DNA of 64,000 bases from the NCBI GenBank assembly GCA_011523055.1, contig WTHQ01000039.1, forward strand, positions 1-64,000, read 5' to 3'. Positions 4,259 to 61,968 of this stretch are shown in pieces (the first letter of the stretch is position 1; each line of letters begins with the position of its first letter). A model generated the notes under the pieces. That model was given only the letters and a program-made list of their open reading frames with translations, was not told the origin of the DNA and ran no database searches. Made by a program: the position numbers and the translations under genes. Origin of the DNA: Methanobacteriota archaeon (GTDB lineage: Archaea > Thermoplasmatota > Poseidoniia > Poseidoniales > Thalassarchaeaceae).

Positions 4259-7200
4259 TCAGAAGAAATCTTCCAGATCCTTTGCCAAGTCATCGAGGTA
4301 ATCATCAGATGACGTCATTCCTCCTGGTTTGGGAGCGGGTGTCACAACATCTGGTGATTTTACAGGTTCTCTTTCGGCTTCGTCCAATTTCAAGCCCTCT
4401 TGAATCTCCCGATCGAACATCGCATCGATCTCTACTTCCCGAGTTGAAATGTCCCACAGCTCATCATTGGCCCCTCTGCTCGATCTGAACGTAAATGCCA
4501 CACCCAAAACGGCGACCGCGAAAATGATGCTACCCAACAGGATATTCAGATCGCCACTGACTAGTCTATCGACCAGCGACGATCCTTCTGAGGCCTCTGG
4601 ATCTGTAGTTCCGGTTTGTTCCGTCCAAGGCAATACGAGAATCGGACTTGCTCGATAGGTGAATTTCTCACCATCGAACGAGACGACTTCGACGTAGTGG
4701 TTCGCATCCCTGTCTAGGGCCTGCTCGTCTATCGAGTCGAATCCATACTCATTGTTTGTCCTATCGAGGGCGATCACACTGGCGTCCCTTACATCGCTGA
4801 ATGGGGTTTGAGATGCGAAGACATGGTACCCGATGACGTCCTGATCATCACTCTCCGCCCAACTCAGCAGGATCCTCGAGCCTGATGGGTTCCAGGCAGC
4901 AGTCAGTCCGGCCACATCTGGACAAGCGGGACATGGGTCCAACCCCAACTCGTCCTTCAGGACGATGTCATTGAATTGTAACTCTGTGGTCCATGCATTT
5001 CCATTCGAGTCTCTGGCAACTATTGCCACGAAGTATCTTAGATCTGGAGCTAGCTCAGTCATTCCCCCAGGTCCGGTGGAGAGCTCGACCAAGGCGGGTC
5101 CGACCCAATCCCTGGGCAGGATAAGTGATGGTGTCAGTGAGCCTAGGTTGCTAAGGAGGAATGGCGAGTCGGGGACAGCGTAGAGCTCGTATGTGGACAC
5201 GTCCGCTGACTCGCTTGGATTGAACACCACGAACATTCCATCGCCGTGATCAGGGTCCCTATCAATTAGTTCCGGTGCTGGTAATCGATCTGGGGGGGTA
5301 GTGTCCTCGAGGTTGGATTGAGGTAGAACTAGGGCGGTCACAAGGTCGTTCAAGTGAACGTTGCCTTCGATGTCATGAACGGTTACGGCGACGTAAAGTG
5401 GTATCTCAGGCGTAATTCCCCTGCTGGTCGAGTCCGTTAGTGTCGATCCATAGAGAGCCTCTGATATCTCAATCTCTAAATTTGCCGAGCCCCCGATCTG
5501 TCTCTGTTGGATGGTCCTAAGTCCACAAGACTCAGGCTCTTCTGAGCAAAAAAACCACATTGTTGAGACGTCCTCTAGTGGATGCTCGCTGACCCATATG
5601 GTGTAGAAGGAAAAGTCTGGGGCCTCGCTTCTACCCCAGATCACGTCTATCGATGTGCCGTCATCGGATGGATGGTCAAAAGCAACGACGTCCTGTAGCC
5701 TCGCTGGTTCAGGCCCGTCCTCAGCCAAGTTGTCGAATGGGGTTGCATCGTCTGGGAGAACGTTGTTTGGGTCAGCGTTCCCCCAATCGTCCTGTGCTAC
5801 CACTGCTACCCAGTATCTCACTCCATTCTGGAGCTGGGTGCCACCTACCCCTCCGATGATGGCGGAAGAGTTGTCGCAACCAGGAACAACCTCCACCACG
5901 GGCCAGCCTTCAGCACTCGTGGGAGGGGAGAACCCGGAGGCTGGTAAGGCGTAAATCGTGTAAAGTACGCAGTCCTCCTCATTGTTCGGTGTCCACGTTA
6001 CCTCGAGATACCCCCCATCGTCGAATGGAAGGTCAGCGGCCGCCACCCCACTCACCCTCGCAGGAGGTATTGAGTCATCAAGTCCCCCTGCTGCGACAAC
6101 AGGCCCGAACAGGGCAGGGTTATGTCTCTCATACTGACCTGCCGTGTCTATGCAAGATGCAGCCAACCATATTGGGGTAGACCGAGGCACGTCGACGATG
6201 GTCTGGTTGCCGAGCGAAAGGGGGATGTCGAAGTAAGTCTGGATCGCTTCAACGTCATCGATCTCAACTGTTGAGTACCAAAGCCTTGTTGAGTGCCTGT
6301 CTAGGTCCGTACAAGGTTGCCACTCGACTTGGAGGCTGCCTCCTGAAAACCCGATCGGCTCTGCGTAAAGTGATTCAGGGGGTTCGGGTACATTGTCAAT
6401 GGACATAGCGGATCCGTCGTAGACTGACATTGGGCCGAGTGAGCCGTCTGGGTATCTGATAGCAACAGCAGCGTAGTATTCCTGCCCGGGTTGGATTCTC
6501 CCGATTCCATCACTGAAATATGCTTCTTCGACCGAGGTTCCCAATGACTGCACATCCGAAAGGGAGGCTATTGGGACAGTTAGTGAGAAATCTGAGGTCT
6601 CAACGAATTGTGTGCTCCAACCAGTTGTATTGTGCCATACAAACACGTCATAGGACATGAAGCTCGGGTCGACTGCCATATCCCAGTTCAAAACTAGTCC
6701 ATCACCGCCATCCCTGGGTCGGTCATCGAAGTATGTTATCTGTGTTGGAATCTCTTGCCTCACCCAATCATAGGTGATCCTTATTTTGATGGTACCAGAG
6801 TCAGGGGGAGACAGTGCAAACTCCCAATTGGCCGTGGACGGGGAACCCGCGTTGTCCACGGCCATTTGGAGTAGCTGTTGCAGACCGGCCTGAGTGGTCA
6901 GATTCCACGTTCCTGAGTAGTTCAGGGTTGAAACCACGGACCAGATGGGCTGTGATGATGTTGTGCTTGTAAAGACGGCGGGATGCCAGGAAAACGGTAT
7001 CGAGCCAAAGTTCTGGGCCTGTAGTTGGAGGGGGGAGTCTGTGATTTGGATATTTGATGGTAGCGTTATTTGATTCCCGGGCCTTGCAGCATCAGTTATG
7101 TCGGTAGTCTGCCCTAGGAAAGTTAGGTCCAGATTCTCCGCCCTGGCATATTCATCCTGGTAGATCCTCTCCAAGGCCCAGTAGGGCCTGTAAGCAAGGG

Positions 7201-10200
7201 TTCCACTGTCAGTCGCGAGGATGAGCGTGTCACCATAAAGAGCGATGTCGTTTATCGATGACCCCAATGCAGGTTCATACGCCCTGGACTGATGGTCCAT
7301 CACACCAATAACGTTGAACCCGCTCCCAGCAGCGACCAGTCTGCTTCCATCCGATTCCATGATGCTGATCGGCCAAGATTGTGAAGAGGCTGCTTGGAGG
7401 CCAATTTCCATTGAGTAGGAGCTGAAGTTGTAGTGATGCAAAGGGCCTGTGTCGGTTGCTACATGCACACCCCAGACATCCACGGCTAGTGCCGTGACGC
7501 TGTTGCTCGGGAGCATGTCAAGCGGATAGTCCCTGAAGATTTCCTGATCGTCGATTGACCAAGATGAGACCCAGGGTCTTGATGCTCCAGTACCTGGGTG
7601 TGATGCGATTAGGACTCTTGGTTGGTATAGCTCCTGAGTAGTCCCGTCTGGCAGGGTGATGTTCCTACTCTTGGCTGGGGCGATTAGAATGTCAGCGATG
7701 TTGGACGAGATGAGTCCGTCTGATTGGGACACCACTCGTTCTACCGTGGCATTTCCCGTCATGTTTTGTATGAATGAGAGGCCATTTGGACTTGAGACAA
7801 TGATCTTATCTGCCGTCATGTTGTTCGTTACCAGCTCTATCTGATCGGAGTTGGGGGGCAGCCCGTCAAATGTTGTGATCGGGTCTAACCACTCTTGTGT
7901 TGCTTCATCGAACCTTCCAATTCCGACTGATGTTGAAACAAGCGTAATGTTGCCAATTCTCATGAAATCTCCAATGGTGTTGGATGGAAGAGAAGCCAGC
8001 AACTCCGGTTCTTCCCATATTCTCGAGCTCATGTCGAGTGATTGGAAGCCCGAGGCAGCGTCGAAGACACTGGTTAAGCCGGTGTAAAGATCGCCTCCTT
8101 GGATGTACATCCCGTCCAAAGAGTTGTGCACCGATCCAGGATGAGTCCTGATTTGTTTAGTGGTCACATCAAGGGAGATCAGGCCTCTGTAGGTGGTGGA
8201 AATCCAGAGCGTGTTCCCGTCTAAAACAATGTCTTCGACGATATCGTCATTGAAGTCAAACGAGTCCACCCAACTGACGTTTCCGTTTTGATCGACTGAT
8301 CCCTCTATTATGGTGCGAGCATATCCAGAGCTGCTCTGGAAATTGCCTTGGTTTGAGGTCCCAATTGCTACCCAGACATTTGAGCCATCGGAGGCATACT
8401 CCACTACATCCCCTGATGGTAGGATGAGAAGCTCGTCGAACCCTCCCTCGATCAATCCGGTAGAATCAAGACGATCTACCCTGTTCACGCCGGAGGTCTC
8501 ACCAGACCTTCCGATTGCATAGGCGAAGTCGGATTCCGGGGGGGCCCTGACTATTGAACTGCCGTCCATTCCTACGCCGAATACATTGCCAGTTGAAATT
8601 GATGAGCCTGAGGTTTCTATCCTCGATATTCCTCCTTCGTCAACGTGGCTCATCAATAATATGCCATTGTCATACAGGATTCCACCCGGGAACACGGGCT
8701 CAGCCGAGATTCCATCTGAGGGGGTGATTGGGGTCAATAGAGTATCACTGGAATAATCATAACGTGATGCTCCGACGTTATCGGAGTCATACCCCGTGTA
8801 GAGCATCGGGTGGCTCTCATCACAGGTTACGGCTCTGGGATCGGGGTCATCTAGACCGCTTCCATCCTCCCAGCTGCCTATCCATTCGCCCGTGACGCCG
8901 TTTCCATCTGAGTCAGCATAATCGTATCTGGCGACATAACCACCCTGCCACCATTGAAGACGGCCAAATGCTACATGGACGATGTCCCTGCAGATTTCAA
9001 TATCAGCGGGATAGGCGTAACCCCCAAGATCCGTGTATGGAGTAACATCCCAGGAGTCTTGAGACTGGTTGTATAGTGATATGTCGATGTTGCCACCCTG
9101 AAAGGTCCCAACCCAGAGGTCTTCTCCGATCACGCGCATCGAATATACTCGGCCTGCGACGTTGGAGGGCAATCCAGCTCCAGGAGTCCATGGAGTCAAG
9201 AACGTGGAATTGTTCGCGTCCCATCTCAAGATGCCGTCCATGGATCCGAAGAGATACGTGTTCCCAAGGGACTCAATGCCCCTGATTGGTCCGGGCACGT
9301 TGTCCCAGGATCCCAACAATGTCATGTCAGTTGCATTATACCTTCTAAGGATTGAATCACCATAGGCCACCCAAAGTTCGCACCCGGCTGATGTGCTCGG
9401 GAAACAATCCCCCATGAACTGGGCATTGACCCGTTGTACGCTACCATACGAGCCGATTGAATCTGCCCAGTCTGCTGATGTGGTGTTCCACCTGGCAATG
9501 TCACCTGGCTCTGACCCCCCCCAACCCTGGACCCCCACGACACCGATCCATAGGTGGTCTTGGACTATGTGCATTCCACGGATCTGACCTTGGTAGCCGA
9601 GGCTGTCAGTGGTGTCTATTTGTGCTAGCGTGGTGTTGTTCTGGAGGTCTATCCTCGTGATCGAATCGCGGGTCTGCCAAGGTTGGGAGGGAACGACTTG
9701 CTGGTAGTACAGAACGCCGTTGTGGACTATGACGTCCAGAGGGGGCTCATATGGGAGGGTTGGGCCGCCCGAATTGGGGCCAAGATTCCAGTCTGTGTTC
9801 AGTTGCCCAGTTGTGGTGTCTATGTTGACGAGGCCAAAATATCCCCCTGCCCATATCGTCCCCGGGGCTTCACCCTCTTCCAGGAGTGTAATGAGATCGT
9901 TGCTGATTAGGCCGCTGCTGGCATCCCATGTTGATAGCCACGTCTCTGTGTTAAGGTCGTATCTTGCGATTCCGACTCCTTGCACCCCTAGGTATGCTAC
10001 CGAGCCCACTACAACAATATCGGTTTGATCGGAGTCTGCTGCGGCTGTCCACACATCCACCAAAGTACCTGTAGAGGTATCGATAATACCCACGCCTTCC
10101 GAGGTTCCCGCATACAGTCGATTTGCCTCCAACATGGCTACCGTGTTTACAAATCGAGAAGGGAGTCCGTCATCGGAACTCCAACAGTCGGGCCCATTGA

Positions 10201-12616
10201 GGGACCAGTCCCACATGCATGCGCCCCTGTTCGTACCAATGTAGATTCCATCTGCATCACTAGTGGCCTCATAGAACTGGAATGGATCTGGGCCCGATGT
10301 GCTTCTTGGGAAGACCGTCCACGTTGGCTGAAGGTAGTCAGTCCCATCCCAAGAGGCTGCGGCACCCGGATTCCACCACGCCGGGCCCTCAGTTGAGATG
10401 ATTATGTTTCCGTTCACGTCCAAGTGAATGTCGTTGATGTCGTTGTCAGGGAGGGTTCCATCGGCTTCATCCCAAATATGCAACACCTCACCTGTGAATC
10501 GATCGATGATGATGAGGCCAAACCCTTTGAGTCCCATCAGAATCCTGTCATCATTGTCGATGATTGCTAACGGAGCCTCATCTAAATTGTCTACACCAAG
10601 CGACCTCCAGGATGACAATACAAGATTCGATGAAACCTCAATGCGCATCACGCCGGCATCAATCGTGCCGATGTAGAGAATGTCTGATCTGAATGCCATG
10701 GAGGTGAACTCCAGAGAGTCGAGTCCTGATTCTTCATCGAAGAAGGAGTAGTCTGCAAAATCACTAGTATTCCCAATGGCAACTCCGAATTGGGGCATTG
10801 ATACGAACACATTACCACTTGATCGGTCGTAAAGCAATTCGTCAATCGGTGCGAAGTCAGACCCTGATATTGTGCCCAGAAGCGATCCATCAGAGTGGTC
10901 TAGCTGGATGATTCCATGACCTGTGGTTGATGCTAGAACCCCCAGACCATCGATTTGAATGATATCTGTGATTTCTGAATCTATACCATCATTGGAGTAG
11001 TCTGTTACGCCTAGCCATCGTTTTGATTCTTCATCGAAACGGTCGATTTCGCTTCCAAGAGCAATCCAAGCCTGCTTTCCCGTTGGGGATTCCACGACCG
11101 ACACTACCTCTGGTTCCAGTATTGCTGGGCCACTTGCTAGCAATAGCGAGCCGATGACACTCATGTCTGAGAACTTGACGAGCGTTCCAGATCTGTCGGT
11201 TGTTACGATTCCTTGCGGTAAGCTCGGCCAGGAAAAAACCTTCTCGAATCCAGTCAGATTGGCCTGTGATGAGGTTATGTCCCCAGTGAAGGCAAGGGCG
11301 TTTGAGTCATATCTCTGAATCTTCGATTGGGAGACGACATAAGCGTAGTTGTCAATGACAATTAACTTCGATATCTCATTGGCATCGAGCCAATTTGAGG
11401 ATGTCCATGGGCTTAGCCATGTGCCAGACGGGATATGTAAGCGGTCAACCCCCCCATTTCCCGCTATGAGGATTTGATCACCAAGAATGCCAATAGAGTT
11501 CACAACATCAGAAACCGTCGATTGAGAGGTCGAGGGAGAAAAATAGGTAGCGTTTGTCAAAGCTGATGTTGAGTTCTGGCCATGAAGCCTGTCGATCATA
11601 ACGAAGCCGTCTCCTTGAGTCCCAACTAGGAGGCTTTGGTTAGTGGATTGGACTACTGAAATGATTGGGTCATTCATGCCTGTGCAAATATCACCAAATT
11701 GCCAACTATCCATCGGCGCATTTGGGTCCCTCCATGTGATGTGACAACCGTTTGCGATCCAGGTCCTGTTGTCATCGTCCAAGTGGAGGCTCGTTGGTTT
11801 GTTTTCATCCCATTGGAAGGTTGCAGGGCTATTGATATCTTGATCTAGGATGTGAGATGAAATGTAGCCGAAATTGCTCAGATTATGGTAATTTAGAGTA
11901 CCATTCTTGGTCAATGTGATGATTAGGTCCTCCCCTTGAACGGACTGAACCTTAACCGCTGGGATTGATTCGACGTGCGCTATCGGACTCGAGATGGTTT
12001 CATCGATCACCAACATGTCGTTGTCCGCGAGTATGATTGTTCTCCCAGAGGAGGGGTCATAGTCCGAGTCGTGAATAATGAGATCCGGAGAGGAAGCGGA
12101 TAGCCTTGGTGAGGCTGGTCGCAATGCTTCGATTACCATGTCTGTAAGCATAGCTCCGGTTGGGAGCAGTAGGCCAGACTGAGAATTGGAGTATGGATCG
12201 AGGTGATCGTCAAGAACCCCGTCTGGTGAGTAGCCTTGGTTGCATCCGAACCCACCAATGCCCGTTCCATCGAAGATCTCCTGATTTGCATCGACTAACG
12301 TCAGTATCGGGTCTTGAGCACAGATACCCTCGGCGCCATTGACCCCGATCTCAAAAGTCATGTTTTCGATTGATGCACCAGGGGGATGTTCTACCAATGT
12401 AGTGGGCAGTCCAGTTGATTGGGAAGCAACGGTAAGCCAACCAGTGTCAACGCTACCTGAAGTACCCCAGTTCAAGCTACTAGATTCCATTCTACGGGGC
12501 TCGTCGAATAGATCGGATGTTGTCGACCAAGGCATTGAGAACATCAGAAAAACGATGATTATCGATCGCAATGAGGCTCTCCCCCTCCTCACAGCGTAGA
12601 CCTGGTCCCTACCCAT
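4259..12616 (-). CDS. Giant cell-surface protein: beta-propeller repeats, fibronectin-like domains, C-terminal membrane anchor
   Basis: 2785 residues from an ATG. It begins with a basic stretch and a hydrophobic signal segment (SLRSIIIVFLMFSMPWS). About the first 1750 residues are propeller-like repeats with recurring patterns such as SGLPSN..., LWVGTFQGG, IYIGTNRGA and W..W....G, similar to the two-component-regulator propeller (Reg_prop) family. A set of fibronectin type III-like domains follows, each opening near PARVSGV or PDRLPAPEL and often carrying DxPDDG or DDGG. One transmembrane helix (LNILLGSIIFAVAVLGVAF) and an acidic cytoplasmic tail of about 80 residues end the protein. It is probably anchored in the membrane with a very large outer part for binding or sensing. 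No catalytic motif is visible. Lacking homology searches, its ligand cannot be named. Confidence 0.85.
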   Translation of the reverse strand: MGRDQVYAVRRGRASLRSIIIVFLMFSMPWSTTSDLFDEPRRMESSSLNWGTSGSVDTGWLTVASQSTGLPTTLVEHPPGASIENMTFEIGVNGAEGICAQDPILTLVDANQEIFDGTGIGGFGCNQGYSPDGVLDDHLDPYSNSQSGLLLPTGAMLTDMVIEALRPASPRLSASSPDLIIHDSDYDPSSGRTIILADNDMLVIDETISSPIAHVESIPAVKVQSVQGEDLIITLTKNGTLNYHNLSNFGYISSHILDQDINSPATFQWDENKPTSLHLDDDNRTWIANGCHITWRDPNAPMDSWQFGDICTGMNDPIISVVQSTNQSLLVGTQGDGFVMIDRLHGQNSTSALTNATYFSPSTSQSTVSDVVNSIGILGDQILIAGNGGVDRLHIPSGTWLSPWTSSNWLDANEISKLIVIDNYAYVVSQSKIQRYDSNALAFTGDITSSQANLTGFEKVFSWPSLPQGIVTTDRSGTLVKFSDMSVIGSLLLASGPAILEPEVVSVVESPTGKQAWIALGSEIDRFDEESKRWLGVTDYSNDGIDSEITDIIQIDGLGVLASTTGHGIIQLDHSDGSLLGTISGSDFAPIDELLYDRSSGNVFVSMPQFGVAIGNTSDFADYSFFDEESGLDSLEFTSMAFRSDILYIGTIDAGVMRIEVSSNLVLSSWRSLGVDNLDEAPLAIIDNDDRILMGLKGFGLIIIDRFTGEVLHIWDEADGTLPDNDINDIHLDVNGNIIISTEGPAWWNPGAAASWDGTDYLQPTWTVFPRSTSGPDPFQFYEATSDADGIYIGTNRGACMWDWSLNGPDCWSSDDGLPSRFVNTVAMLEANRLYAGTSEGVGIIDTSTGTLVDVWTAAADSDQTDIVVVGSVAYLGVQGVGIARYDLNTETWLSTWDASSGLISNDLITLLEEGEAPGTIWAGGYFGLVNIDTTTGQLNTDWNLGPNSGGPTLPYEPPLDVIVHNGVLYYQQVVPSQPWQTRDSITRIDLQNNTTLAQIDTTDSLGYQGQIRGMHIVQDHLWIGVVGVQGWGGSEPGDIARWNTTSADWADSIGSYGSVQRVNAQFMGDCFPSTSAGCELWVAYGDSILRRYNATDMTLLGSWDNVPGPIRGIESLGNTYLFGSMDGILRWDANNSTFLTPWTPGAGLPSNVAGRVYSMRVIGEDLWVGTFQGGNIDISLYNQSQDSWDVTPYTDLGGYAYPADIEICRDIVHVAFGRLQWWQGGYVARYDYADSDGNGVTGEWIGSWEDGSGLDDPDPRAVTCDESHPMLYTGYDSDNVGASRYDYSSDTLLTPITPSDGISAEPVFPGGILYDNGILLMSHVDEGGISRIETSGSSISTGNVFGVGMDGSSIVRAPPESDFAYAIGRSGETSGVNRVDRLDSTGLIEGGFDELLILPSGDVVEYASDGSNVWVAIGTSNQGNFQSSSGYARTIIEGSVDQNGNVSWVDSFDFNDDIVEDIVLDGNTLWISTTYRGLISLDVTTKQIRTHPGSVHNSLDGMYIQGGDLYTGLTSVFDAASGFQSLDMSSRIWEEPELLASLPSNTIGDFMRIGNITLVSTSVGIGRFDEATQEWLDPITTFDGLPPNSDQIELVTNNMTADKIIVSSPNGLSFIQNMTGNATVERVVSQSDGLISSNIADILIAPAKSRNITLPDGTTQELYQPRVLIASHPGTGASRPWVSSWSIDDQEIFRDYPLDMLPSNSVTALAVDVWGVHVATDTGPLHHYNFSSYSMEIGLQAASSQSWPISIMESDGSRLVAAGSGFNVIGVMDHQSRAYEPALGSSINDIALYGDTLILATDSGTLAYRPYWALERIYQDEYARAENLDLTFLGQTTDITDAARPGNQITLPSNIQITDSPLQLQAQNFGSIPFSWHPAVFTSTTSSQPIWSVVSTLNYSGTWNLTTQAGLQQLLQMAVDNAGSPSTANWEFALSPPDSGTIKIRITYDWVRQEIPTQITYFDDRPRDGGDGLVLNWDMAVDPSFMSYDVFVWHNTTGWSTQFVETSDFSLTVPIASLSDVQSLGTSVEEAYFSDGIGRIQPGQEYYAAVAIRYPDGSLGPMSVYDGSAMSIDNVPEPPESLYAEPIGFSGGSLQVEWQPCTDLDRHSTRLWYSTVEIDDVEAIQTYFDIPLSLGNQTIVDVPRSTPIWLAASCIDTAGQYERHNPALFGPVVAAGGLDDSIPPARVSGVAAADLPFDDGGYLEVTWTPNNEEDCVLYTIYALPASGFSPPTSAEGWPVVEVVPGCDNSSAIIGGVGGTQLQNGVRYWVAVVAQDDWGNADPNNVLPDDATPFDNLAEDGPEPARLQDVVAFDHPSDDGTSIDVIWGRSEAPDFSFYTIWVSEHPLEDVSTMWFFCSEEPESCGLRTIQQRQIGGSANLEIEISEALYGSTLTDSTSRGITPEIPLYVAVTVHDIEGNVHLNDLVTALVLPQSNLEDTTPPDRLPAPELIDRDPDHGDGMFVVFNPSESADVSTYELYAVPDSPFLLSNLGSLTPSLILPRDWVGPALVELSTGPGGMTELAPDLRYFVAIVARDSNGNAWTTELQFNDIVLKDELGLDPCPACPDVAGLTAAWNPSGSRILLSWAESDDQDVIGYHVFASQTPFSDVRDASVIALDRTNNEYGFDSIDEQALDRDANHYVEVVSFDGEKFTYRASPILVLPWTEQTGTTDPEASEGSSLVDRLVSGDLNILLGSIIFAVAVLGVAFTFRSSRGANDELWDISTREVEIDAMFDREIQEGLKLDEAEREPVKSPDVVTPAPKPGGMTSSDDYLDDLAKDLEDFF

Positions 12617-12730: not shown

Positions 12731-15046
12731 ATGAAGGCGTCAGGTTTCAGTCGGTGGGCTGGGATGACAGACGATCAGTTGCGGAAAGAGGCCTTGGATT
12801 ACCATGAGTTGCCTTCCCCTGGGAAGATGGCCACGAAACCGACTAAACCACACTCTACTGCACATGAGTTGGCGTTGGCATACTCCCCTGGAGTGGCATA
12901 TCCGTGTCTGGAAATAGAGAAAGATCGGAATCTTGCCTTTTCATATACGTCGAAAGGAAATCTGGTTGGGGTTGTAAGTAACGGGACCGCTGTTTTAGGC
13001 CTTGGGAACATTGGCCCCCTCGCTGGCAAGCCTGTAATGGAGGGCAAGGCGCTGTTGTTCAAATCATTCGCGGATATTGATGTGTTCGACATTGAGGTGG
13101 ATAGGACTGGAGTGGAAGGTTTTGTCGAGGCAGTCAAGGCTATTTCTCCCACTTTCGGCGGAATTAATCTCGAAGACATAAAGTCGCCCGAATGCTTTGA
13201 GATTGAAAAAAGACTGAAAGAAGAACTGGACATTCCCGTGATGCATGACGATCAGCATGGAACGGCAATAATAAGCGGTGCTGCACTGATCAATGGGTTA
13301 GAAGTTGTTGACAAGAAAATAGGCGACGTGACCGTGGTGATTTCTGGTGCAGGGGCTTCAGCCATATCTTGTGCGAGGCATTACGTCAGGCTTGGTGTTG
13401 ATAGAAGTCGAATACTCATGTGTGACTCCAAGGGTCTCCTGACCAAGAAAAGGGGGGATGATGGGGAGTTGAATGAGTATAAGATGGAGTTCGCACGGGA
13501 CTTGCCTGAAAGTTCACTTGGAGAATTATTGGAAGGTGCTGATGTATTCCTCGGATTGTCGAAGGGCGGTCTGGTAGATGGAGACATGGTTGCTACAATG
13601 GCAAACAAACCTTTGATCTTCGCTTTGGCAAATCCAGATCCTGAGATTCTCCCTGAGGAGGTTCGAGCCGTTAGGGACGATGCTGTGATAGCGACGGGAA
13701 GAAGCGATTATCCAAATCAGATCAACAACGTCCTCGGTTTCCCCTACATCTTCAGGGGAGCATTGGACGTAAGGGCTACAAGCATCACTGAAAATATGAA
13801 GATGGCCGCCACGATGGCCCTATCGGAACTTGCTAAGGAGACCGTTCCTGATGATGTTGTTGAGGCTTACGACGGTGCCAGGATTCAATACGGCCCGGAT
13901 TACCTAATCCCAAAACCATTCGATGCAAGAGTCCTGATTTGGGAGGCCTCGGCGGTTGCAGAGGCTGCGGTGAATGATGGGGTCGCACGGATTGAAAGTG
14001 GATCATTTGATGTCAAAAAATATAGAGAAGAGCTGGAGAATAGGTTGGGACTTACCAGATCAGTAATGAGGTCAGTAATCAACAGAGCTATCTCTAACCC
14101 ACAGAGAATTGTTTTTTCAGAGGGAGAGGACGAGACAATAATCAAAGCGGCAGCTCAATGTGCCCGAGAGGGCATTTGCAAGCCCATCCTGCTTGGACAA
14201 GTGAGGAGGATCAAAGCTGCAATCAGTGATCTAGCCCTAGATTTTGATTGTGAGATAATTGACCCGAGGTATGATGCAAGAAGGAGGGGCGAATATGCTG
14301 AAGAGTTGCACGAGATAAGGGGAAGAAGGGGAATAAGTAAGTCAGATGCTGTCGAGTTGCTCAAGCAATCGACATGGTTCGCCCCAATGATGGTCCGAAA
14401 GGGAGGCGCAGATGGTTACCTAGGCGGAGTGAGTCACAATTATCCAGACATCGTCAAGCCCTGCTTGAAGATAATCGGAACGTCAGAAGACGCCCATCGA
14501 GTCGTTGGATCGTACATGATGACGGTTGGGGGGCAGGTGATGTTCATTGCTGATGCTACGATCAACATCAATCCCGATGCTCGAACACTTGCGGAGATCG
14601 CAGTTAGGACGGCCAGAGTGGCTAAAAGATTTGGAGTTAAACCCAAGGTTGCAATGCTTTCATTTTCCAACTTTGGCTCCAGTGGGGAGCTAAGGACGAC
14701 GAGGATTGAGGACTCCATAAAAATGGCAAGAGAAATAGACCCTGAAATCATCATTGACGGTCCGATGCAAGCAGACACCGCTTTGGTTCCAGAGCAACAG
14801 AAAGACTATCCATTCATGACCTTCGAAGGGCCCGCAAACGTTCTGATTTGTCCTAGTTTGGCATCTGCAAACATAGCATACAAATTACTCCAGAGGTTAG
14901 CAGGAGCGGAAATGACGGGACCCATACTCGATGGATTAGCTCGTCCAGCTCATGTACTCCAACGCGGTGACAGTGTCAGGGAAGTGGTCCACATGGCTGC
15001 GATATGCTCAGTCGATGCACAGAGAATGGCCACTCAGAGGCTCTGA
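12731..15046 (+). CDS. maeB: NADP-dependent malic enzyme with C-terminal phosphotransacetylase-like domain
   Basis: 771 residues, the usual length of MaeB-type enzymes. Residues ~1-425 are malic enzyme: [12 protein letters not shown], the metal-binding region [10 protein letters not shown] and a Rossmann segment [14 protein letters not shown]. Residues ~440-771 resemble phosphate acetyltransferase ([12 protein letters not shown]..., [16 protein letters not shown]). The reaction is malate + NADP to pyruvate + CO2 + NADPH. In characterised MaeB proteins the C-terminal domain is regulatory, sensing acetyl-CoA, rather than active. The start at 12731 is the first ATG after an AT-rich stretch (ttccattattaag near 12636) that could hold the TATA box. 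Its 3' end overlaps pckA, which faces it. Confidence 0.93.
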
Positions 15047-16662
15047 GTTTCGTGAATCATTGGTGCAGCTGCGATTACTTCGTCACTGCAGCCTTCGATG
15101 AAACTCTCGAAGTTCTCATTGAACATCTGGACGAGCAGGTTGGCCACATTGTCGTATCGATTTACGTCAGACCATGTAGACCGAGGTTGGAGTATTTCTG
15201 ATGGCACTCCATCGCAGGTCACAGGAATTTTGAATCCGAATCTTTCGTCTGTTACGTACACGACGTCATCTAAGGACCCTGAAAGGGCGGCGTTCAACAA
15301 TGCACGTGTCCAGCTTATCCTGATTCGACTGCTCTCTCCATAGCCTCCGGCGATCCATCCAGTGTTGATCAACCAGCATGATGCGTTGTGATCTGCAATC
15401 TTCTTGCTGAGGAGATTAGCGTATTCACTCGGGTGACGTGGCATGAACGGAGCTCCGAAACAGGCGGAGAAGGTTGCCATCGGCTCGGTCACCCCAACCT
15501 CTGTCCCTGCCACCTTAGCAGTGTAGCCAGAGATGAAGTGATAAGCTGCCTGAGCGGGGGACAATCTCGAGATCGGGGGCAGGACCCCAAAGGCATCACA
15601 GGTTAGGAATACCACATTGTCTGGATGTCCAGCCGTTGAGTCATCTGTTCGATTCTCAATCGATTCGATGGGGTAAGAGGCCCTTGTATTCTGAGTGAGG
15701 GTTGAGTCATGGAAGTTGGGTATCCCATCTGCATCAAGAATTACATTCTCAAGAATCGTTGATTCCATCTTAGTCGTTGCATAGATCGCTGGCTCATCTT
15801 CCTCAGAAAGTCCAATCATCTTCGCATAACAACCCCCCTCGAAATTGAATATGCCTTGGTCTGACCAACCATGCTCATCATCACCGACCAATGCCCTTCC
15901 TGGATCCGCGGAGAGTGTGGTCTTCCCTGTTCCTGAAAGACCGAAAAACAGGGCAGACGATTTGTCCGTTGTATTGGCGGAGCAATGCATCGGAAGAAGT
16001 CCGCGTGCAGGTAGGATGTGATTCATAATGGTAAAAATCGACTTCTTTATTTCCCCTGCATACCGAGTTCCACCTATCAGAACTAGCCCCTTCGAAAGGG
16101 AGATAACGACGAAGGCTTCTGAGTTGACACCATATTCCTTCGGGTCAACCGTGAGGGATGGTGCGTGCAGTATTGTGAATTCAGGGATGTGCCCAAACAA
16201 AGAATCTCTGTCGGATCGAACAAACATATTGTGCATGAATGCTGAATGCCAGGCACTCTCACTGACCAGTCTGACGGGCATAGAGTGAGACTTGTCAGCA
16301 CCACAGTGCATGTCCTTGACAAATAGCGTGGCAGAGGAATTCAGATGGCCCTGGATTGTTTGGAGTAAATCTTCGAAGACTGCTTCGGAGATTGGACGGT
16401 TGACTTCGCTCCAGTGGACTTCCGAGGCAAGTCCGGGCTCGTCAACTATAAATCGATCATTTGGTGACCTCCCAGTACGGTTGCCAGTGGTGGCAAGCAG
16501 TGCTCCATGGGCCGTTCTTGTTGCCTCTCCTCGTTGAACCGCAAGTTCCCTGAGCTCCTCTCCTGTCAGGTTCCAGTATACTGATCCACTGGGATCGAGT
16601 CCGTGAGTCCCCAGAGGTGTCTTGTAAACAGTTGCAGCGTTGGACGGGGTCTGTTCGACCAT
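15034..16662 (-). CDS. pckA: Phosphoenolpyruvate carboxykinase (ATP)
   Basis: 542 residues, full length for the ATP-dependent family. The kinase-1a loop GLSGTGKTTLS and the metal-binding GDDEHGWSD are present, and the N-terminal region has TGRSPNDRFIV. It converts oxaloacetate and ATP to PEP, CO2 and ADP, the entry into gluconeogenesis. Most archaea that have PEPCK use the GTP form, so this gene is of bacterial type and probably acquired. Its last codons overlap the end of malic enzyme by 13 bases. The pair would set the direction of flow between C4 and C3 acids. Confidence 0.95.
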   Translation of the reverse strand: MVEQTPSNAATVYKTPLGTHGLDPSGSVYWNLTGEELRELAVQRGEATRTAHGALLATTGNRTGRSPNDRFIVDEPGLASEVHWSEVNRPISEAVFEDLLQTIQGHLNSSATLFVKDMHCGADKSHSMPVRLVSESAWHSAFMHNMFVRSDRDSLFGHIPEFTILHAPSLTVDPKEYGVNSEAFVVISLSKGLVLIGGTRYAGEIKKSIFTIMNHILPARGLLPMHCSANTTDKSSALFFGLSGTGKTTLSADPGRALVGDDEHGWSDQGIFNFEGGCYAKMIGLSEEDEPAIYATTKMESTILENVILDADGIPNFHDSTLTQNTRASYPIESIENRTDDSTAGHPDNVVFLTCDAFGVLPPISRLSPAQAAYHFISGYTAKVAGTEVGVTEPMATFSACFGAPFMPRHPSEYANLLSKKIADHNASCWLINTGWIAGGYGESSRIRISWTRALLNAALSGSLDDVVYVTDERFGFKIPVTCDGVPSEILQPRSTWSDVNRYDNVANLLVQMFNENFESFIEGCSDEVIAAAPMIHETQSL

Positions 16663-16750
16663 GCACTAACGAAATGAAACCGGAATATGAAAGATTGTGA
16701 TGGCCTCACCATAACCGTCATTTGCGAACCTTTCATCTTCTTGTCCAATC

Positions 16751-16758
16751 AGGAGGGG
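16751..16758 (+). promoter_or_regulatory. Shine-Dalgarno that fixes the start of the large membrane protein
   Basis: aggagggg lies three bases before the ATG at 16762. It is one of the clearest ribosome binding sites in the window and rules against the upstream in-frame ATG at 16687, which has none. Confidence 0.75.
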
Positions 16759-16761
16759 ATA

Positions 16762-19700
16762 ATGACGGAGGACGAGGATGCTATCCTTCGAAGAAAAAAA
16801 TTTGACTCCGAAGGCTTGCTGGAACTTCGAAGCGAAGTTGGTTATCAAGCGGTTAAGGATGGTGACGGGGGAATAAAGGCGGGATACGACGAGGCTGTTG
16901 GCTCGTTACCAGAAATCTTCGTAGAAGATGGCGGAGATGGCGATCCCAAATCCATGAGGCTAGTTGAAGATTCTGAGCGAAGGGTAAACTGGATTCTTCT
17001 CTCGGTTATGGTCATAGCCTACAGCGTGCTCAGTCTCCTGGTTGGAATTGAGTTTGAGGCTGAGATTGCAATACCCACACTCCTGGTACTTTCCATTGTC
17101 GGGCTGATCCTGGGGGAGAGGTGGATAAAGAATGGTGATCTGCACCTCCTGGGCATCGCATGGGTCATTATTTCCATGAAGGTGCTTTACGGGGCATCGC
17201 TTGAGTTGGGCAACTGGCATCTTGGGGGTTTGCTCCCCTTGGACGCCGAGGGGGTCGGAATAGTCCTATGTGGGTTGGTTCTGTTCAATGTAATCCTATC
17301 CTACAGGTACGATAGTGATGCGGTCGCCGCTCAGGCCACACTTGTCCTACTCGCAGTGGGCTCAACCGCAGGGTCTGTTGCGGGGGAAGACGGAGTCATC
17401 ATCATGCTCTTGATTTCGATATTCCTTCTTCACGCCATTGCGATTCACAAATCCTCTGGTAACCTAGCATCTCTGGGGATCGCGTCTTCCAACATTTGGT
17501 TTGGAATGCACGTGGTAACGGGGGGCTTTGAGTTGGGGTCATTGAACGTCGTGGCCTTGCAGAATCCCCTCAAGTTGTTCATCGCTATTGCCATGGTAAA
17601 CGTTGCGAATGCATACGTTGCGACAAGATTCGCTACATCGAAAAATTGGTTCTCAGACGGACTAGAGGCGTTGGGGATAGGGAAACCGGGGCTTTGGGGA
17701 GTTTCCGTAATCCTGTCTATGTTGGGGGCTTTATTGGTTATTGGATCGGTTCGAGAAGAGATCTCGTTCGCTTTCTCAATCATTGTCTTGCTAGCAGTAT
17801 GTTATTTCTCGTCATACTTGGTTGTACGGAAATCTCCGAGAACAGAGGTATTCACGATCGCAGGAACGGCCATTACTCTGCTTTTGTTCGGAGTCATTCT
17901 GATTGAAACAGAAATTATTCAGGTCACACTGGATCCTTACTGGATATTTTCTGCCGGTGGTGCTATGTCACTGGGTTTGTTACTGATAAGGCACCAAGGC
18001 ATAGTCAGCGACACAGTCCTTTGGACGGGCTCCATTGGGGCCACGTGTTTGATTCTGGTAATGACCCCATTGGAGGGATCTAACAGCGATAGGGCCCTGC
18101 TCTTGATATTCGCTCTCTCATTTCTGCATCTCCTAGGTGGATACTTCTCGATCAAGAGGAGATCTGCCTCGCTGGCTGGTGTGGCAGTTCTGACCCCATG
18201 GCTCTGGCCATTAGTGTTGATTATATTCAATGAGGTGCTTATGACTCTCTCAGCACGGGGTGGGAGTACAGGTATCACCCGCTTCGATTCGATCGGATTG
18301 GATTTGGAAGGATTCATGATTTATCTTGTCCTAAATTCGATCTTTGGAGCTTGGATGTGCTCGTCTTTCGGTCAAGCATCACTGAACATTTCCTCGGGGT
18401 TAGTCGGATCATCAGAGATGTCCTCCGCACTCAAGCAGGCTGAGGCATTCAATCTCTGGAATCTTGCGTTGTGGATTCCATTGTTGGCCACAATTGTTCT
18501 AACGCTCGATGGGCAACTAAGCGGAGTGGATGGGGCGTTTGTATTTGGTAGCGTCTCTTTGGTACATTCGTCTTCCTCAGTAATTGGAATACGCAAGACT
18601 TCCACAACCTCGGTCCCAATATTGATTGGAGTAGGGGGGGTTCTCCTTCAGTGGGTCGGGGGAGATTCTTCGATCATTGTAATCTTGATCGGGGCCTCAG
18701 TATTCCTCCCGGTCTCGATTGGCAGTTGGAATCCGAAAGAGGATTGGATCAGCGTGGCTATACAAACCGGGCCGGTCTTGATGCTACTCCCCAGAGCAGG
18801 AGGTGGTCTGAGCACCTCGGTACCATGGCTCCCCGATCCAGCACAGTGTGTGATTGCCATCGCCACAATCTCAGTAATTGTGGGGGCGATCAGAACGAAA
18901 TTGCAGCAGAATATCCTCCCCCTGTCGACGGCCTCGATCTCACACTCGACTATTGTTTGCATGCTATCCATTGTTGATGGCAGAAGCGAGATCTTCTGGA
19001 TCTCGATACTACTCTTCGCCTTCAATTCTATTTGGTTCGTGACTAGAGGTGAGATACTCAGAGAGCTACGATCGTCCGCTGAAAAATCCAAACGAAGGCA
19101 AGAAGTGAATGATCTAGAGGTTAGGGGGGTCCAGCAAGGGGTCCACATGCCGGCTGTCGAGAGACACAAAGCCTCGAGTGATTCAACGAGCATCGGAGAG
19201 GCATATGTGGAAGAAGTTAGACATTATCCTGTGCTTGCGATCGTTGTCATTATCATAACGTCAGCTGCGCTGAGCCTGTACTCACTGATTCGTGGACCGG
19301 AGCCACTCTTAGTCATGGCAATCGGTGTGTTTCTGGCAACCATCATTACTCTGGAGGCTGATAGATCCCGTCGAATTGAGGTACGAATTGCTAGCACACT
19401 CGGCTCCGAGATAACTCATTCGTTTGCAGTCGTTGGAGTGTGTTGTGCAGTTGTATTGGGCCACATGAGCCCTTCATCGTCAGTAACTGATCTCACAGAC
19501 TTTGGGATGGCTATTGCCGTTGTGCTCGTCCTTGGTGCCGCCAGGCTTGCTAGTGGCGAGAGGGGGTTTGATTCCAGGAGGTCCCTGGTTAACTGGGTAG
19601 TTTTCCCACTGCTCGCCACAAGATTGGCTGGATTTGTCGTGATTGGGTCTCTACCGGCTCCGCTGAGTGTCGATCCTTTTGACGGCTCACTTGTTACGTG

Positions 19701-20373
19701 GACTTTTCCGTTCGTTTTGCTGGAGGTAGTCTTACTTCTATCGATTGTCATGGATGTGGTACTGGATCGCAAGGCTTCGAGAACCGGGGCAAGTGAGGTT
19801 GGTTTCGCTTGTGCTGTGGTCCTCCTGTCATGGGGGCCGGCTGGCATAATCGCGGTGATCAGGGGCATAGTAAGCTCAGTGCGTGGTGGACGGGGGAGTG
19901 AAGCTGGTGTTATCGCATTGTTTCTCCCAATCTCACTCATCTCTCTGGAGTCGGTACTCCCCGTGGCGGGCCCTCTCTCGGAAACGGCCATCTTGGTTGA
20001 ACTAGCATTGTTCACTTTGATCCTGTTCATGGGGGTTCTAATCGACCTAGATAGTTGGAGTGTCTCCTCGGTCCAGAACGCCCACATACTAGTCGGCGTC
20101 TCCTCATTCTACATCCTCTCTGTGGAGGTTGGAGTGATTGTTCTAATCTGCATATCCACACTAGCGTGGTCACAGGGGATCACTAGGTTGAGGAGAGGTC
20201 TTCGCATCACTGGTTTGATTGATTTCTCGCTTGCAGCTGTAATTGGGATAATGATCTGGCTGTCCACGATGAGCAGTTCCTGGCTACTCGCACTCACTAC
20301 CTTCCTTTCGGCGGAACTGGCTGTGGTCCTATGGCTAAGTCAGAGAAGTATGAAACAAATAGAAATCGATTGA
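16762..20373 (+). CDS. Very large polytopic membrane protein, function unknown
   Basis: About 1203 residues. I start it at the ATG at 16762 rather than the track start at 16687, because a strong Shine-Dalgarno (aggagggg, 16751-16758) precedes it. An acidic soluble N-terminus of ~75 residues is followed by roughly 24 hydrophobic helices. Then comes a charged cytoplasmic-looking linker (residues ~790-850, with KSKRRQEVNDLE), then about 12 more helices. No transporter signature, P-loop or catalytic motif stands out. The size and many unbroken helices are reminiscent of DUF2339-like proteins, but I cannot assign it. The downstream FKBP-like gene overlaps its 3' end by 43 bases, so the two are likely coexpressed. 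Confidence 0.8.
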   Translation: MTEDEDAILRRKKFDSEGLLELRSEVGYQAVKDGDGGIKAGYDEAVGSLPEIFVEDGGDGDPKSMRLVEDSERRVNWILLSVMVIAYSVLSLLVGIEFEAEIAIPTLLVLSIVGLILGERWIKNGDLHLLGIAWVIISMKVLYGASLELGNWHLGGLLPLDAEGVGIVLCGLVLFNVILSYRYDSDAVAAQATLVLLAVGSTAGSVAGEDGVIIMLLISIFLLHAIAIHKSSGNLASLGIASSNIWFGMHVVTGGFELGSLNVVALQNPLKLFIAIAMVNVANAYVATRFATSKNWFSDGLEALGIGKPGLWGVSVILSMLGALLVIGSVREEISFAFSIIVLLAVCYFSSYLVVRKSPRTEVFTIAGTAITLLLFGVILIETEIIQVTLDPYWIFSAGGAMSLGLLLIRHQGIVSDTVLWTGSIGATCLILVMTPLEGSNSDRALLLIFALSFLHLLGGYFSIKRRSASLAGVAVLTPWLWPLVLIIFNEVLMTLSARGGSTGITRFDSIGLDLEGFMIYLVLNSIFGAWMCSSFGQASLNISSGLVGSSEMSSALKQAEAFNLWNLALWIPLLATIVLTLDGQLSGVDGAFVFGSVSLVHSSSSVIGIRKTSTTSVPILIGVGGVLLQWVGGDSSIIVILIGASVFLPVSIGSWNPKEDWISVAIQTGPVLMLLPRAGGGLSTSVPWLPDPAQCVIAIATISVIVGAIRTKLQQNILPLSTASISHSTIVCMLSIVDGRSEIFWISILLFAFNSIWFVTRGEILRELRSSAEKSKRRQEVNDLEVRGVQQGVHMPAVERHKASSDSTSIGEAYVEEVRHYPVLAIVVIIITSAALSLYSLIRGPEPLLVMAIGVFLATIITLEADRSRRIEVRIASTLGSEITHSFAVVGVCCAVVLGHMSPSSSVTDLTDFGMAIAVVLVLGAARLASGERGFDSRRSLVNWVVFPLLATRLAGFVVIGSLPAPLSVDPFDGSLVTWTFPFVLLEVVLLLSIVMDVVLDRKASRTGASEVGFACAVVLLSWGPAGIIAVIRGIVSSVRGGRGSEAGVIALFLPISLISLESVLPVAGPLSETAILVELALFTLILFMGVLIDLDSWSVSSVQNAHILVGVSSFYILSVEVGVIVLICISTLAWSQGITRLRRGLRITGLIDFSLAAVIGIMIWLSTMSSSWLLALTTFLSAELAVVLWLSQRSMKQIEID

Positions 20374-21386
20374 ACGGGGGGTCACGTCGGGCGAATGTTG
20401 ATTGCAGCGGTTGCTCACAAGGTACTGTGGCAGGACCTTGGATCTCGGACACGGCCGAGGAAATCGAGCATCCAACAGTCCCACTTGGTATCAACAGAAT
20501 GGCAATTCCAAGGGCTGCGATTTTTCTCTCCCTTTCGATGGTGGCGCTGATATTCCTCTCCACTGTGATAGTCGGGTACAGTGCTTGGAAATTTTTAGAG
20601 ATGAATCAAGACGCATTCGATGCCACCGATAAATCATTGATTCGGGACCCGGAAACAGATAGGTGGTATTGGGAGGCAACTCTCCTTTACGACACCTGCA
20701 ACCCAAGGCTCGATGATTGGAATTGGCCTGATTCCCTCTCTGATCAGGATGATCTTTTCCTATTGCCGGGAGAAGTCCGTTGTGACTGGGAGCACCAAGG
20801 GGAAGGAGACAGGGCCTCATTGGCGATCCACAACCGCGGGAACCAATCCCTCGATCTGGTCCTCGAGATCATAGGGGGGTCGATTGTATTTGGAGAGAGC
20901 GGAGAGGCTGATCTATCAATCATTGATTTGCAGGGGAATGACTCAATCGTGTTGGAGCTCCAACTCCTTGAGGATGTAACTGAGCACGATGTTCAGATCA
21001 TTGTCTCGCATTTACAGGTGATGGATGCCCGGGTTTTTCTTGACCTCAACGTGTTTGCTGGGGCAGAGCCGAGGGACATCCATGTTGGTGACGGTGACCA
21101 AGTTGAGGTGCAATACACAGTTTGGGATGCAGACACAGATGAGCAACTGGATGATGGCAATCTTGTAGTTACCGCAGGAGAGGACCCGGCGTGGATCGAA
21201 GGATTCGGTTGGTCGGCAATCGGACTGGATATAGACAGCGACAGGGGTTTGATACCGGGGATAAACTCCGGAACTTCCCACATAACCTTGCTTCCACCGT
21301 CGCTGGCATATGGTGAGAGTGATGGGGAGCTGAGGGACCGATGGCTCCGATTTGAGCTGGAAGTCAATCGCGGGCCCTTAACTTGA
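20331..21386 (+). CDS. Membrane-anchored protein with FKBP-like C-terminal domain
   Basis: 351 residues. A soluble N-terminus of ~56 residues precedes one membrane segment (FLSLSMVALIFLSTVIVGY). If translation starts at the in-frame ATG at 20499 the helix is at the N-terminus instead. The outer part has a middle beta-rich region and then, from residue ~255, an FKBP-type peptidyl-prolyl isomerase pattern: VEVQYTVWDADT, GLIPGINSGTSHITLLPPS and LAYGESDG, ending with RFELEVN. In FKBPs these cover the YTG strand, the VI.GW helix and the LAYG loop. The tryptophan of the active site is replaced (LIPGIN), so activity may be weak. Cotranscribed with the large membrane protein, it could help fold or bind it. 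Confidence 0.65.
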   Translation: MAKSEKYETNRNRLNGGSRRANVDCSGCSQGTVAGPWISDTAEEIEHPTVPLGINRMAIPRAAIFLSLSMVALIFLSTVIVGYSAWKFLEMNQDAFDATDKSLIRDPETDRWYWEATLLYDTCNPRLDDWNWPDSLSDQDDLFLLPGEVRCDWEHQGEGDRASLAIHNRGNQSLDLVLEIIGGSIVFGESGEADLSIIDLQGNDSIVLELQLLEDVTEHDVQIIVSHLQVMDARVFLDLNVFAGAEPRDIHVGDGDQVEVQYTVWDADTDEQLDDGNLVVTAGEDPAWIEGFGWSAIGLDIDSDRGLIPGINSGTSHITLLPPSLAYGESDGELRDRWLRFELEVNRGPLT

Positions 21387-21401
21387 TGAGGGGTTTCGCG
21401 G

Positions 21402-22625
21402 ATGTCCACAGAAAGAGGCCACAGTCTGGTGGAAATCTCTGAACTAGGGCTGGACCCTGGCGTTCCAAAGCAGGAATTGCGAAGGCTGATCACCCCCAAA
21501 TCAGTATGCGAATACCGGGCCTTGCTCGCATCCAAGGCAAGTTTGCCAGAGGGGCTCATTTTGGATCCAGCTGCTGGTTCGGGCGGACAGCTCCTCGCCT
21601 ATGGCAAATACATCAGCAAGCACTGTGTAGGGGTAGAATTGTCGCCTGAGCGCGCAAAGTATTGCGGTTATGTTCTATCTCGAGCTAATTCAACGGGATC
21701 GTTCATGACGATATGTGGGGACGGGATTGATGCACATGGTGTAATGGCAGCCGTGAAAACCCAGATTGGAGTCTCTTCTGTCAGCATGTTGCATGTTGAT
21801 CCCGCTCGTCCGATGGATACCCAGAAACACTCGGTGTCTGAGATGCAACCACCACTGGCTAAGTTGCTAGAATCATGGTCAGAATACATCTCTTCGGGGG
21901 AACAAGGGCCTGCTATGGCATTGGATCTCTCCCCAAGGCTGGCCGGACAACAAATGTCCGAGATAGAACACATAGTCACGACCATATTCCCTGGGACAGC
22001 CATGACATGGGAATGGCTCAGTAGGGGCGGGGGTCGAGTTGACAGGTTGTGTCTTCACACCGGGCCCCTTGCACACACTCCTTCAGTGTCGAAATCTGTC
22101 CGTCTTTACAACGACGGTAGTTTTTCAGTATTGCACGCCAGAGAGGAGGAGCTTGACTCGGAAGACTCAGGTTGGCCGAATTATGAGGTCATGGAGGGGG
22201 ACACGGTGGCCTTGGTCGACCCGGTCGTAACCAAATCTCGGTTGAGGGGCGTTTTCGAAGATCGCTTGGGGTACAATCGTGGAGAACTGATCTGGGCGAA
22301 GAAATCTGATAGGCGCCCATTGGTTGTTCTCCGAGAGGAGATCCGACCAGGATCAGAAGCCAGACCATTCGTTATGGCCCAAGGTAAGGCAGTAGGAAGA
22401 TTGGAATCGGATCTGAGCATGATGTCAATCGACTCGTTGGCAGCGTTGGCGATGGAGAATGGGATAAGTAACATTCAGATTCGATGTTCCTGCGAGCCTC
22501 GGCTCCACAAGAGAATTACAAACAGACTGAGTAAAATAATGGGCAGTGTAGATGGGATGTCGGGCTTTTTGATCGAGGATGGAGGGACAAAAGACCTCAT
22601 GCTGTGCAGAGATGTGGAAAAATAG
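21402..22625 (+). CDS. Class I SAM-dependent methyltransferase, possibly THUMP-like type
   Basis: 407 residues. A SAM-binding motif I is clear (LDPAAGSGGQLLAYG), followed by VGVELSPERAKYC, where the acidic residue would bind the ribose of SAM. The N-terminus (KQELRRLITPKSVCEYRALL) and a C-terminal domain ending in KDLMLCRD recall the family of methyltransferases with a THUMP-like C-terminal domain, whose substrate is unknown. An RNA substrate is possible but not shown. It follows the FKBP-like gene by 15 bases and ends 88 bases before rps13. Confidence 0.65.
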   Translation: MSTERGHSLVEISELGLDPGVPKQELRRLITPKSVCEYRALLASKASLPEGLILDPAAGSGGQLLAYGKYISKHCVGVELSPERAKYCGYVLSRANSTGSFMTICGDGIDAHGVMAAVKTQIGVSSVSMLHVDPARPMDTQKHSVSEMQPPLAKLLESWSEYISSGEQGPAMALDLSPRLAGQQMSEIEHIVTTIFPGTAMTWEWLSRGGGRVDRLCLHTGPLAHTPSVSKSVRLYNDGSFSVLHAREEELDSEDSGWPNYEVMEGDTVALVDPVVTKSRLRGVFEDRLGYNRGELIWAKKSDRRPLVVLREEIRPGSEARPFVMAQGKAVGRLESDLSMMSIDSLAALAMENGISNIQIRCSCEPRLHKRITNRLSKIMGSVDGMSGFLIEDGGTKDLMLCRDVEK

Positions 22626-60835: not shown

Positions 60836-60943
60836 CAGCCCTTAGGTATCTCGGACACGAACAAGACGACAAAAGAACATTCGGAATTAGTTTCCATAAA
60901 TTGCTGCCAAGGTTCATTGATCAGTCTCTGTCAGTGCGTGCTG

Positions 60944-61528
60944 ATGGCGCACAACCCGAGTGAGGTCAAACTTCAGCTTTCGGAAAATGTGAAGCGGCTA
61001 GCCTACCTTTATTCGCCAGATGATCAATTCACACTTGCCAGTGGCAGGAGAAGCTCACATTTTTTCGATATGAAACCGGTGATGATGGATCCTGAATCAG
61101 CTCATCTGATTGGAATAATGGCCCATGAGATACTGAAAGGCTTGGGTGAGGTAAATGCAGTGGGCGGATTGGAGTTGGGGGCTGTACCTCTGACTGGAAT
61201 TGTGATTGCAAAGTCCGGTAAAGGTAGCAAACTAAGAGGATTTATTGTCAGAAAGGAGCCTAAGGGGAGAGGGGGGAGGAAAACAGGCAATCCCCCTGGA
61301 ATAGAGGGCTCAACCGTGCAAGAGGGAGATCGAGTGGTTCTCTTGGAAGATGTCACAACAACAGGTGGTTCTGCGATAAAATGTGCTGACGTTTTGGAGG
61401 AGGTTGGCTGCCATGTGATTGGTTGCATAACCATACTGGACAGAGAGGAAGGTGGAGTCACCGCTTTTAGAGAAAGGGGCATACCCCTCTTCCCGCTGCT
61501 TAGGAAGTCAGATATCGCAGGTAATTGA
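60944..61528 (+). CDS. pyrE: Orotate phosphoribosyltransferase
   Basis: 194 residues from the ATG at 60944 (MAHNPSEVKLQLSENVKRLAYL); the track adds nine residues. The PRPP-binding motif VVLLEDVTTTGGSA and the substrate loop IVRKEPKGRGGRKTG are clear. It makes OMP in pyrimidine synthesis. A TATA-like ccataaatt lies near 60894. Its TGA is directly followed by the ATG of the csaA-like gene. Confidence 0.92.
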   Translation: MAHNPSEVKLQLSENVKRLAYLYSPDDQFTLASGRRSSHFFDMKPVMMDPESAHLIGIMAHEILKGLGEVNAVGGLELGAVPLTGIVIAKSGKGSKLRGFIVRKEPKGRGGRKTGNPPGIEGSTVQEGDRVVLLEDVTTTGGSAIKCADVLEEVGCHVIGCITILDREEGGVTAFRERGIPLFPLLRKSDIAGN

Positions 61529-61924: not shown

Positions 61925-61968
61925 GGGGCAGCGTTACCATATTGGACTAGTTCATCCTCGTGAGATGC

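Follow-up and report, generated by a model that had tools for sequence, protein, structure and literature searches.

The nearest described system to the locus analysed here is a pair of membrane proteins from Pseudomonas aeruginosa. Arc3A belongs to DUF2339 and has 35 predicted helices. It stably associates with Arc3B, the auxiliary product of the adjoining gene, and keeps lysophospholipids from accumulating when phospholipases attack, through a mechanism other than the LplT/Aas route (PMC8926400). The role of Arc3A against lipase effectors has been confirmed (PMC12663445). In three bacterial plasmid records a DUF3999 gene was found directly after the DUF2339 gene, a gene position which suggests that Arc3B may be a DUF3999 protein. 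The literature searched contained no paper mentioning DUF3999 and none linking the order Poseidoniales with FKBP proteins.

No planktonic archaea of the surface oceans are more abundant than the Poseidoniales, which are uncultured. The sequence examined here, referred to as the window, is a stretch of 64,000 nucleotides from a genome of the family Thalassarchaeaceae (Marine Group IIb; order Poseidoniales), in which a gene for a large polytopic membrane protein (hereafter the giant) had been predicted to form a membrane module with an anchored FKBP-like protein and a methyltransferase.

Genomic context

The gene order at the locus is a malic enzyme-phosphotransacetylase (PTA) fusion (+), ATP-type PEP carboxykinase (PEPCK; -), the giant (+), the FKBP-like protein (+), the methyltransferase (+), rpsM and rpsD, with more RNA-polymerase and ribosomal genes on the 3' side (Table 1). 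The coordinates originally given for the three central genes are correct as open reading frames. Two further genes of the window were recorded in their own right: the malic enzyme-PTA fusion (12731-15046, +), a layout familiar in bacteria, adjoins the PEPCK gene, and the frame at 4259-12616 (-) encodes a secreted protein of 2785 residues that contains Reg_prop-like propeller repeats and has a membrane helix at its C-terminus.

Table 1. Coordinates of the genes and protein regions of the locus within the window
Feature	Position	Strand	Basis or remark
ATP-type PEPCK	15034..16662	-	PF01293, 1.4e-202; divergent neighbour of the giant gene across the order
Giant polytopic membrane protein, 1203 aa, DUF2339-like	16762..20373	+	Homologues start at or near Met 16762
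DUF2339-aligned region, helices 1 to ~14, from the GERRxNW motif	16951..18174	+	hhalign 96.2, E 2.5e-9
Membrane block 1, 24 predicted helices	16993..19044	+	Alignment-averaged hydropathy
Charged cytoplasmic linker, 63 residues	19045..19233	+	Alignment-averaged hydropathy
Membrane block 2, 13 predicted helices	19234..20340	+	Alignment-averaged hydropathy
Membrane-anchored FKBP-like protein, 319 aa	20427..21386	+	Start corrected to GTG 20427
Transmembrane anchor helix of the FKBP-like protein	20502..20603	+	AF2 helix 26-59
Ig/PapD-like beta-sandwich, invariant C91 and C119	20670..21059	+	AF2; Foldseek PapD/MSP/Ig-like chains; invariance
FKBP domain	21075..21371	+	Pfam in homologues; PDB FKBP matches; AF2
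Class I SAM methyltransferase	21402..22625	+	Member of the rpsM-rpsD cluster, not part of the membrane pair

Structure and distribution of the giant membrane protein

The longest open reading frame of the giant spans 16687-20373 (1228 aa), and in the alignment of its relatives 16762 is the preferred start (1203 aa). A protein of about 1200 residues, with about 35 hydrophobic helices in two blocks around a charged linker, had been predicted, and alignment-averaged hydropathy bore this out: it predicts 37 membrane helices, 24 in the first block and 13 in the second, separated by a 63-residue linker containing 11 positive and 11 negative residues. In the loops of block 1, 20 K/R residues follow even-numbered helices and five follow odd-numbered helices, and this bias to one side places both the N-terminus and the linker in the cytoplasm. 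There was no signal over reversed controls for a duplication between blocks 1 and 2 or within block 1, and there is no recognisable enzyme domain. The AF2 model of the giant was good (pLDDT 83.1, pTM 0.69), and its comparison with solved structures (Foldseek, PDB) matched no transporter fold, returning mainly TPR/alpha-solenoid proteins (best E 6e-4, query-normalised TM-scores below 0.2) that are read only as 'stacked helix hairpins', with no homology claimed. No Pfam or NCBIfam model passed for the window protein, nor any Pfam model for 38 homologues, and a known transporter family was found neither in Pfam or NCBIfam nor among PDB folds.

The giant is a Poseidoniales-specific, order-wide protein, present in 115/116 Poseidoniales genomes, including all 30 of those at least 90% complete, and ~25-35% identical between genera. 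It was not found in any of 21 relatives of the same class outside the order (the sister family, Marine Group III), and across 145 genomes of the phylum there was just one match outside the order, weak and partial (3.8e-4). A protein of this size without annotation in all sufficiently complete genomes of the order represents a conspicuous blank. As a separate observation, the STT3/AglB oligosaccharyltransferase domain lies, in most Poseidoniales, within a single open frame of ~3,100-3,200 residues, about three-fold larger than is usual (G000:C9:50398-51435 and 56 further genomes of the order).

Remote relationship to DUF2339

The Pfam model for DUF2339 (PF10101) has a curated score of 33.6 bits, which was reached neither by the giant of the window nor by the 38 homologues, and a DUF2339 search of the window's genome was also negative. 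Pfam DUF2339 was found in a few other Thermoplasmatota, with one protein (L144) at 7.7e-15; a plasmid search with this archaeal protein as the query gave no match, and bacterial DUF2339 proteins were reached via L143 and a Peptoclostridium gene. Another archaeal protein, of 1673 residues (L162, 2462-7480), has a zinc-ribbon-like N-terminus and a DUF2339/DUF2157-like membrane region.

Profile-profile comparison (hhalign) of 55 giants (profile A4) with 11 DUF2339-type proteins, seven bacterial and four archaeal (profile A10), resulted in a probability of 96.2 (E 2.5e-9, score 92.6, 351 columns). Among the A10 controls, the STT3 family (unrelated polytopic proteins, 30 sequences) scored 31.9, the reversed giant 32.2, and 30 block shuffles a mean of 33 and a maximum of 59; a Pfam-accepted archaeal DUF2339 protein alone scored 74 against the bacterial set. 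When A4 was compared with six archaeal DUF2339-type proteins, the probability was 91.7% and the score 70.8, with a reversed control at 45 and 60 block shuffles at no more than 47. Against bacterial DUF2339 alone (one MAFFT alignment) the score of 30 was not significant, so the signal needs archaeal intermediates. A collinear second match to the DUF2339 C-terminal signature (score 38) was not significant and is a weak echo. The giant also fits the DUF2339 layout, with a charged N-terminus, an ExRxGxN/W-type motif (GERRxNW) before helix 1, and its 37 helices.

These comparisons point to the giant being a strongly diverged, remote relative within the DUF2339 superfamily and not a member of PF10101, and the original view that the locus could be linked to no described system is superseded by this probable kinship with DUF2339/Arc3A. 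An alternative explanation is that the giant has no kinship with DUF2339 and is a transporter or lipid flippase particular to the order, its likeness to DUF2339 having arisen by convergence of hydrophobic repeats, as might be suggested by the absence of a Pfam, NCBIfam or PDB family match and by the inflation of profile scores in membrane proteins. However, this appears unlikely, given that the shuffled, reversed and unrelated-membrane-family controls scored far lower, that the DUF2339 match runs collinearly over ~14 helices, starting at the GERRxNW motif, and that solved transporter folds were unmatched where alpha-hairpin repeat proteins predominated at TM-scores below 0.2.

The anchored FKBP-like protein

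All distinct relatives whose N-terminus bears the W-I/M-S/A-D motif have a GTG (rarely ATG) precisely four codons ahead of the conserved Trp, and upstream of this start the relatives' genes often have just 1-15 open codons before an in-frame stop is reached. The conserved position and the upstream stops place the start of the window's gene at GTG 20427, 53 nt after the giant, and the 43-base overlap first described is a start-call artefact of the longest open reading frame (351 aa). The distance from the giant stop to this start in relatives is mostly 45-162 nt, extending to 1.2 kb with an inserted MscS-like gene; this channel gene (L034, 6890-7942) was observed in several genomes of one genus.

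The AF2 model of the protein (pLDDT 82.6) consists of a helix (residues 26-59), a beta-sandwich (82-211) and an FKBP-like domain (~217-315), and the two invariant cysteines would be fitting for an extracytoplasmic disulfide. Membrane anchoring with an FKBP-like outer domain, as originally predicted, is supported by this model, by matches of Pfam FKBP_C (PF00254) to 11 of 18 homologues (best E 3e-4; the protein of the window has no Pfam match) and by alignment to PDB FKBPs at E 0.02. Ig-like domains dominate the Foldseek results, with no FKBP among the matches listed. The suggestion of an altered active site holds for part of the pocket: in FKBP12 numbering, Leu occupies the W59 position and the R42 loop is lost, but the equivalents of Y26, D37, Y82 and F99 are invariant. 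The protein was found in 116/118 Thalassarchaeaceae genomes and was absent from 21 of the 22 genomes searched in the family Poseidoniaceae, where the sole homologue (genome G164) lies directly before a cyclophilin gene and not beside the giant.

Conservation of gene order

PEPCK and the giant are arranged head-to-head in 42/42 loci across both families, Thalassarchaeaceae and Poseidoniaceae. The giant is followed by the FKBP-like gene in all 26 Thalassarchaeaceae loci, a conservation far beyond the strain level, and stands alone in all 16 Poseidoniaceae loci. The conserved unit is therefore the giant with PEPCK throughout the order, and the giant with the FKBP-like gene in one family.

The methyltransferase follows a different pattern. 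It is a class I SAM enzyme with a DPAAGSGGQ motif, separated by 15 bases from the FKBP-like gene as first reported, for which no Pfam or NCBIfam model passes; its DPAAGSG motif I, 'DPARPxDAQxH' and 'DLSPRL' presumably liken it to the DPAR(R/P)-motif class I SAM methyltransferases (PG_1098/THUMP-like). It was present in 22/22 Poseidoniaceae genomes searched, and in the 21 loci inspected from that family it was in every case directly upstream of rpsM-rpsD, preceded by pyrE and apart from the giant, whereas in Thalassarchaeaceae methyltransferase-rpsM is preceded by the FKBP-like gene. Given its position beside rpsM in both families, its constant partner is the ribosomal cluster, and its substrate is most likely RNA or a ribosomal protein. 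The pyrE gene, 5' of the methyltransferase-rpsM cluster in Poseidoniaceae (L104-L124), is located with cyclophilin at 60917-62454 in the window, and this difference in placement indicates a rearrangement breakpoint between the two families. A three-gene module is ruled out by the Poseidoniaceae synteny (giant alone, methyltransferase with rpsM, FKBP-like protein absent from 21/22), and of the membrane complex originally proposed there remains the invariant giant-FKBP pairing, but not the methyltransferase.

This pairing could mean that the giant has the FKBP-like protein as its own dedicated outer subunit, the two forming an obligate envelope complex in Thalassarchaeaceae without the methyltransferase. 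The genes share a strand with mostly short gaps, their pairing is unbroken despite the divergence of the giants between genera, and bacterial DUF2339 genes likewise pair with envelope-protein genes. However, the retention of the giant in Poseidoniaceae without the FKBP-like protein, the separate location of the G164 homologue and the MscS-like gene lying between the two in some Thalassarchaeaceae genomes make such an obligate complex a possible but somewhat doubtful outcome; further, synteny is conserved here in general, as PEPCK and the giant demonstrate, and adjacency alone is consequently weak evidence. The FKBP-like protein might instead be a general extracytoplasmic folding helper (a surface PPIase or chaperone) whose place beside the giant is a by-product of rearrangement, which would be consistent with its position before the cyclophilin gene in G164, with the pyrE/cyclophilin evidence of rearrangement between the families at the methyltransferase-rpsM cluster, and with the retention of key FKBP pocket residues. 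Its invariant pairing with the giant within Thalassarchaeaceae argues against this explanation, which is likewise tentative.

Proposed function and the lipid divide

We consider it moderately probable, from the resemblance to DUF2339, that the giant is a lineage-specific DUF2339-like protein of lipid or envelope maintenance with an optional outer PPIase-like partner. The giant would form a chain of membrane-helix hairpins with a cytoplasmic N-terminus and linker and, by analogy with Arc3A, would most likely act in membrane-lipid and envelope homeostasis; polar lipids that are damaged or have a single chain might, for instance, be shielded, sequestered or moved by it. In Thalassarchaeaceae, a partner anchored with its N-terminus inside would display the Ig-like domain and FKBP fold outside the cell, probably serving the giant, or other envelope proteins, as an outer auxiliary subunit or as an aid to folding, comparable to Arc3B with Arc3A, while Poseidoniaceae would manage without it. 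The isoprenoid ether lipids of archaea are not regular targets of phospholipase A, and the Arc3A phenotype may therefore not carry over to the giant. The link to DUF2339/Arc3A provides a first testable function for the giant, namely lipid damage control.

The archaeal lipid backbone is made by glycerol-1-phosphate (G1P) dehydrogenase. Two of the three genomes sampled from Marine Group III contained this enzyme (Fe-ADH_2, PF13685), as did most other Thermoplasmatota, and it was not found in Poseidoniales, one match at 1.1e-4 apart; the distribution of the giant within Thermoplasmatota is approximately its mirror image. The absence of G1P dehydrogenase from Poseidoniales agrees with published work, and a bacterial backbone has been proposed for the archaeal lipids of the order (PMC6461757). 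It is conceivable, though improbable, that the giant is an order-defining part of the Poseidoniales membrane which could handle or protect such putative mixed membranes, in which archaeal ether lipids would have the G3P backbone of bacteria. The contrast between giant and dehydrogenase represents a single evolutionary event, and it is therefore only suggestive and carries little weight. If true, a lipid link of the giant would bear on the lipid divide.

Comparison with known systems

The giant resembles DUF2339/Arc3A in being a very large polytopic protein with a charged cytoplasmic N-terminus, an E-R-x-x-N/W motif before helix 1, a variable number of helix hairpins, no enzyme motif and, often, an envelope partner encoded by a neighbouring gene. 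It differs in falling below the Pfam threshold, in its division into two blocks around a charged linker, in its archaeal and exclusively Poseidoniales distribution, and in its partner, which is an FKBP protein in Thalassarchaeaceae and missing in Poseidoniaceae, as opposed to the DUF3999/Arc3B partner of DUF2339/Arc3A. The FKBP-like protein shares with DUF3999/Arc3B a predicted membrane-linked extracytoplasmic beta-sandwich and a gene adjoining that of a DUF2339-type giant; however, it has an FKBP domain, an Ig-like domain instead of the F5/8-type C domain, and an N-terminal anchor, and with no sequence similarity found between them the two are analogous at most. Compared with the FKBP isomerases (PF00254), it has the FKBP fold, the invariant Tyr/Asp/Tyr/Phe pocket positions and an 'LLPPxxAYG' loop, but is set apart by the Leu substitution and lost loop noted above, by a conserved GFGWSxxGLD motif, and by the membrane anchor and Ig-like domain in front. 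If the kinship proposed here is correct, the barely characterised DUF2339 family would gain a new branch in archaea, one whose outer partner is of another kind.
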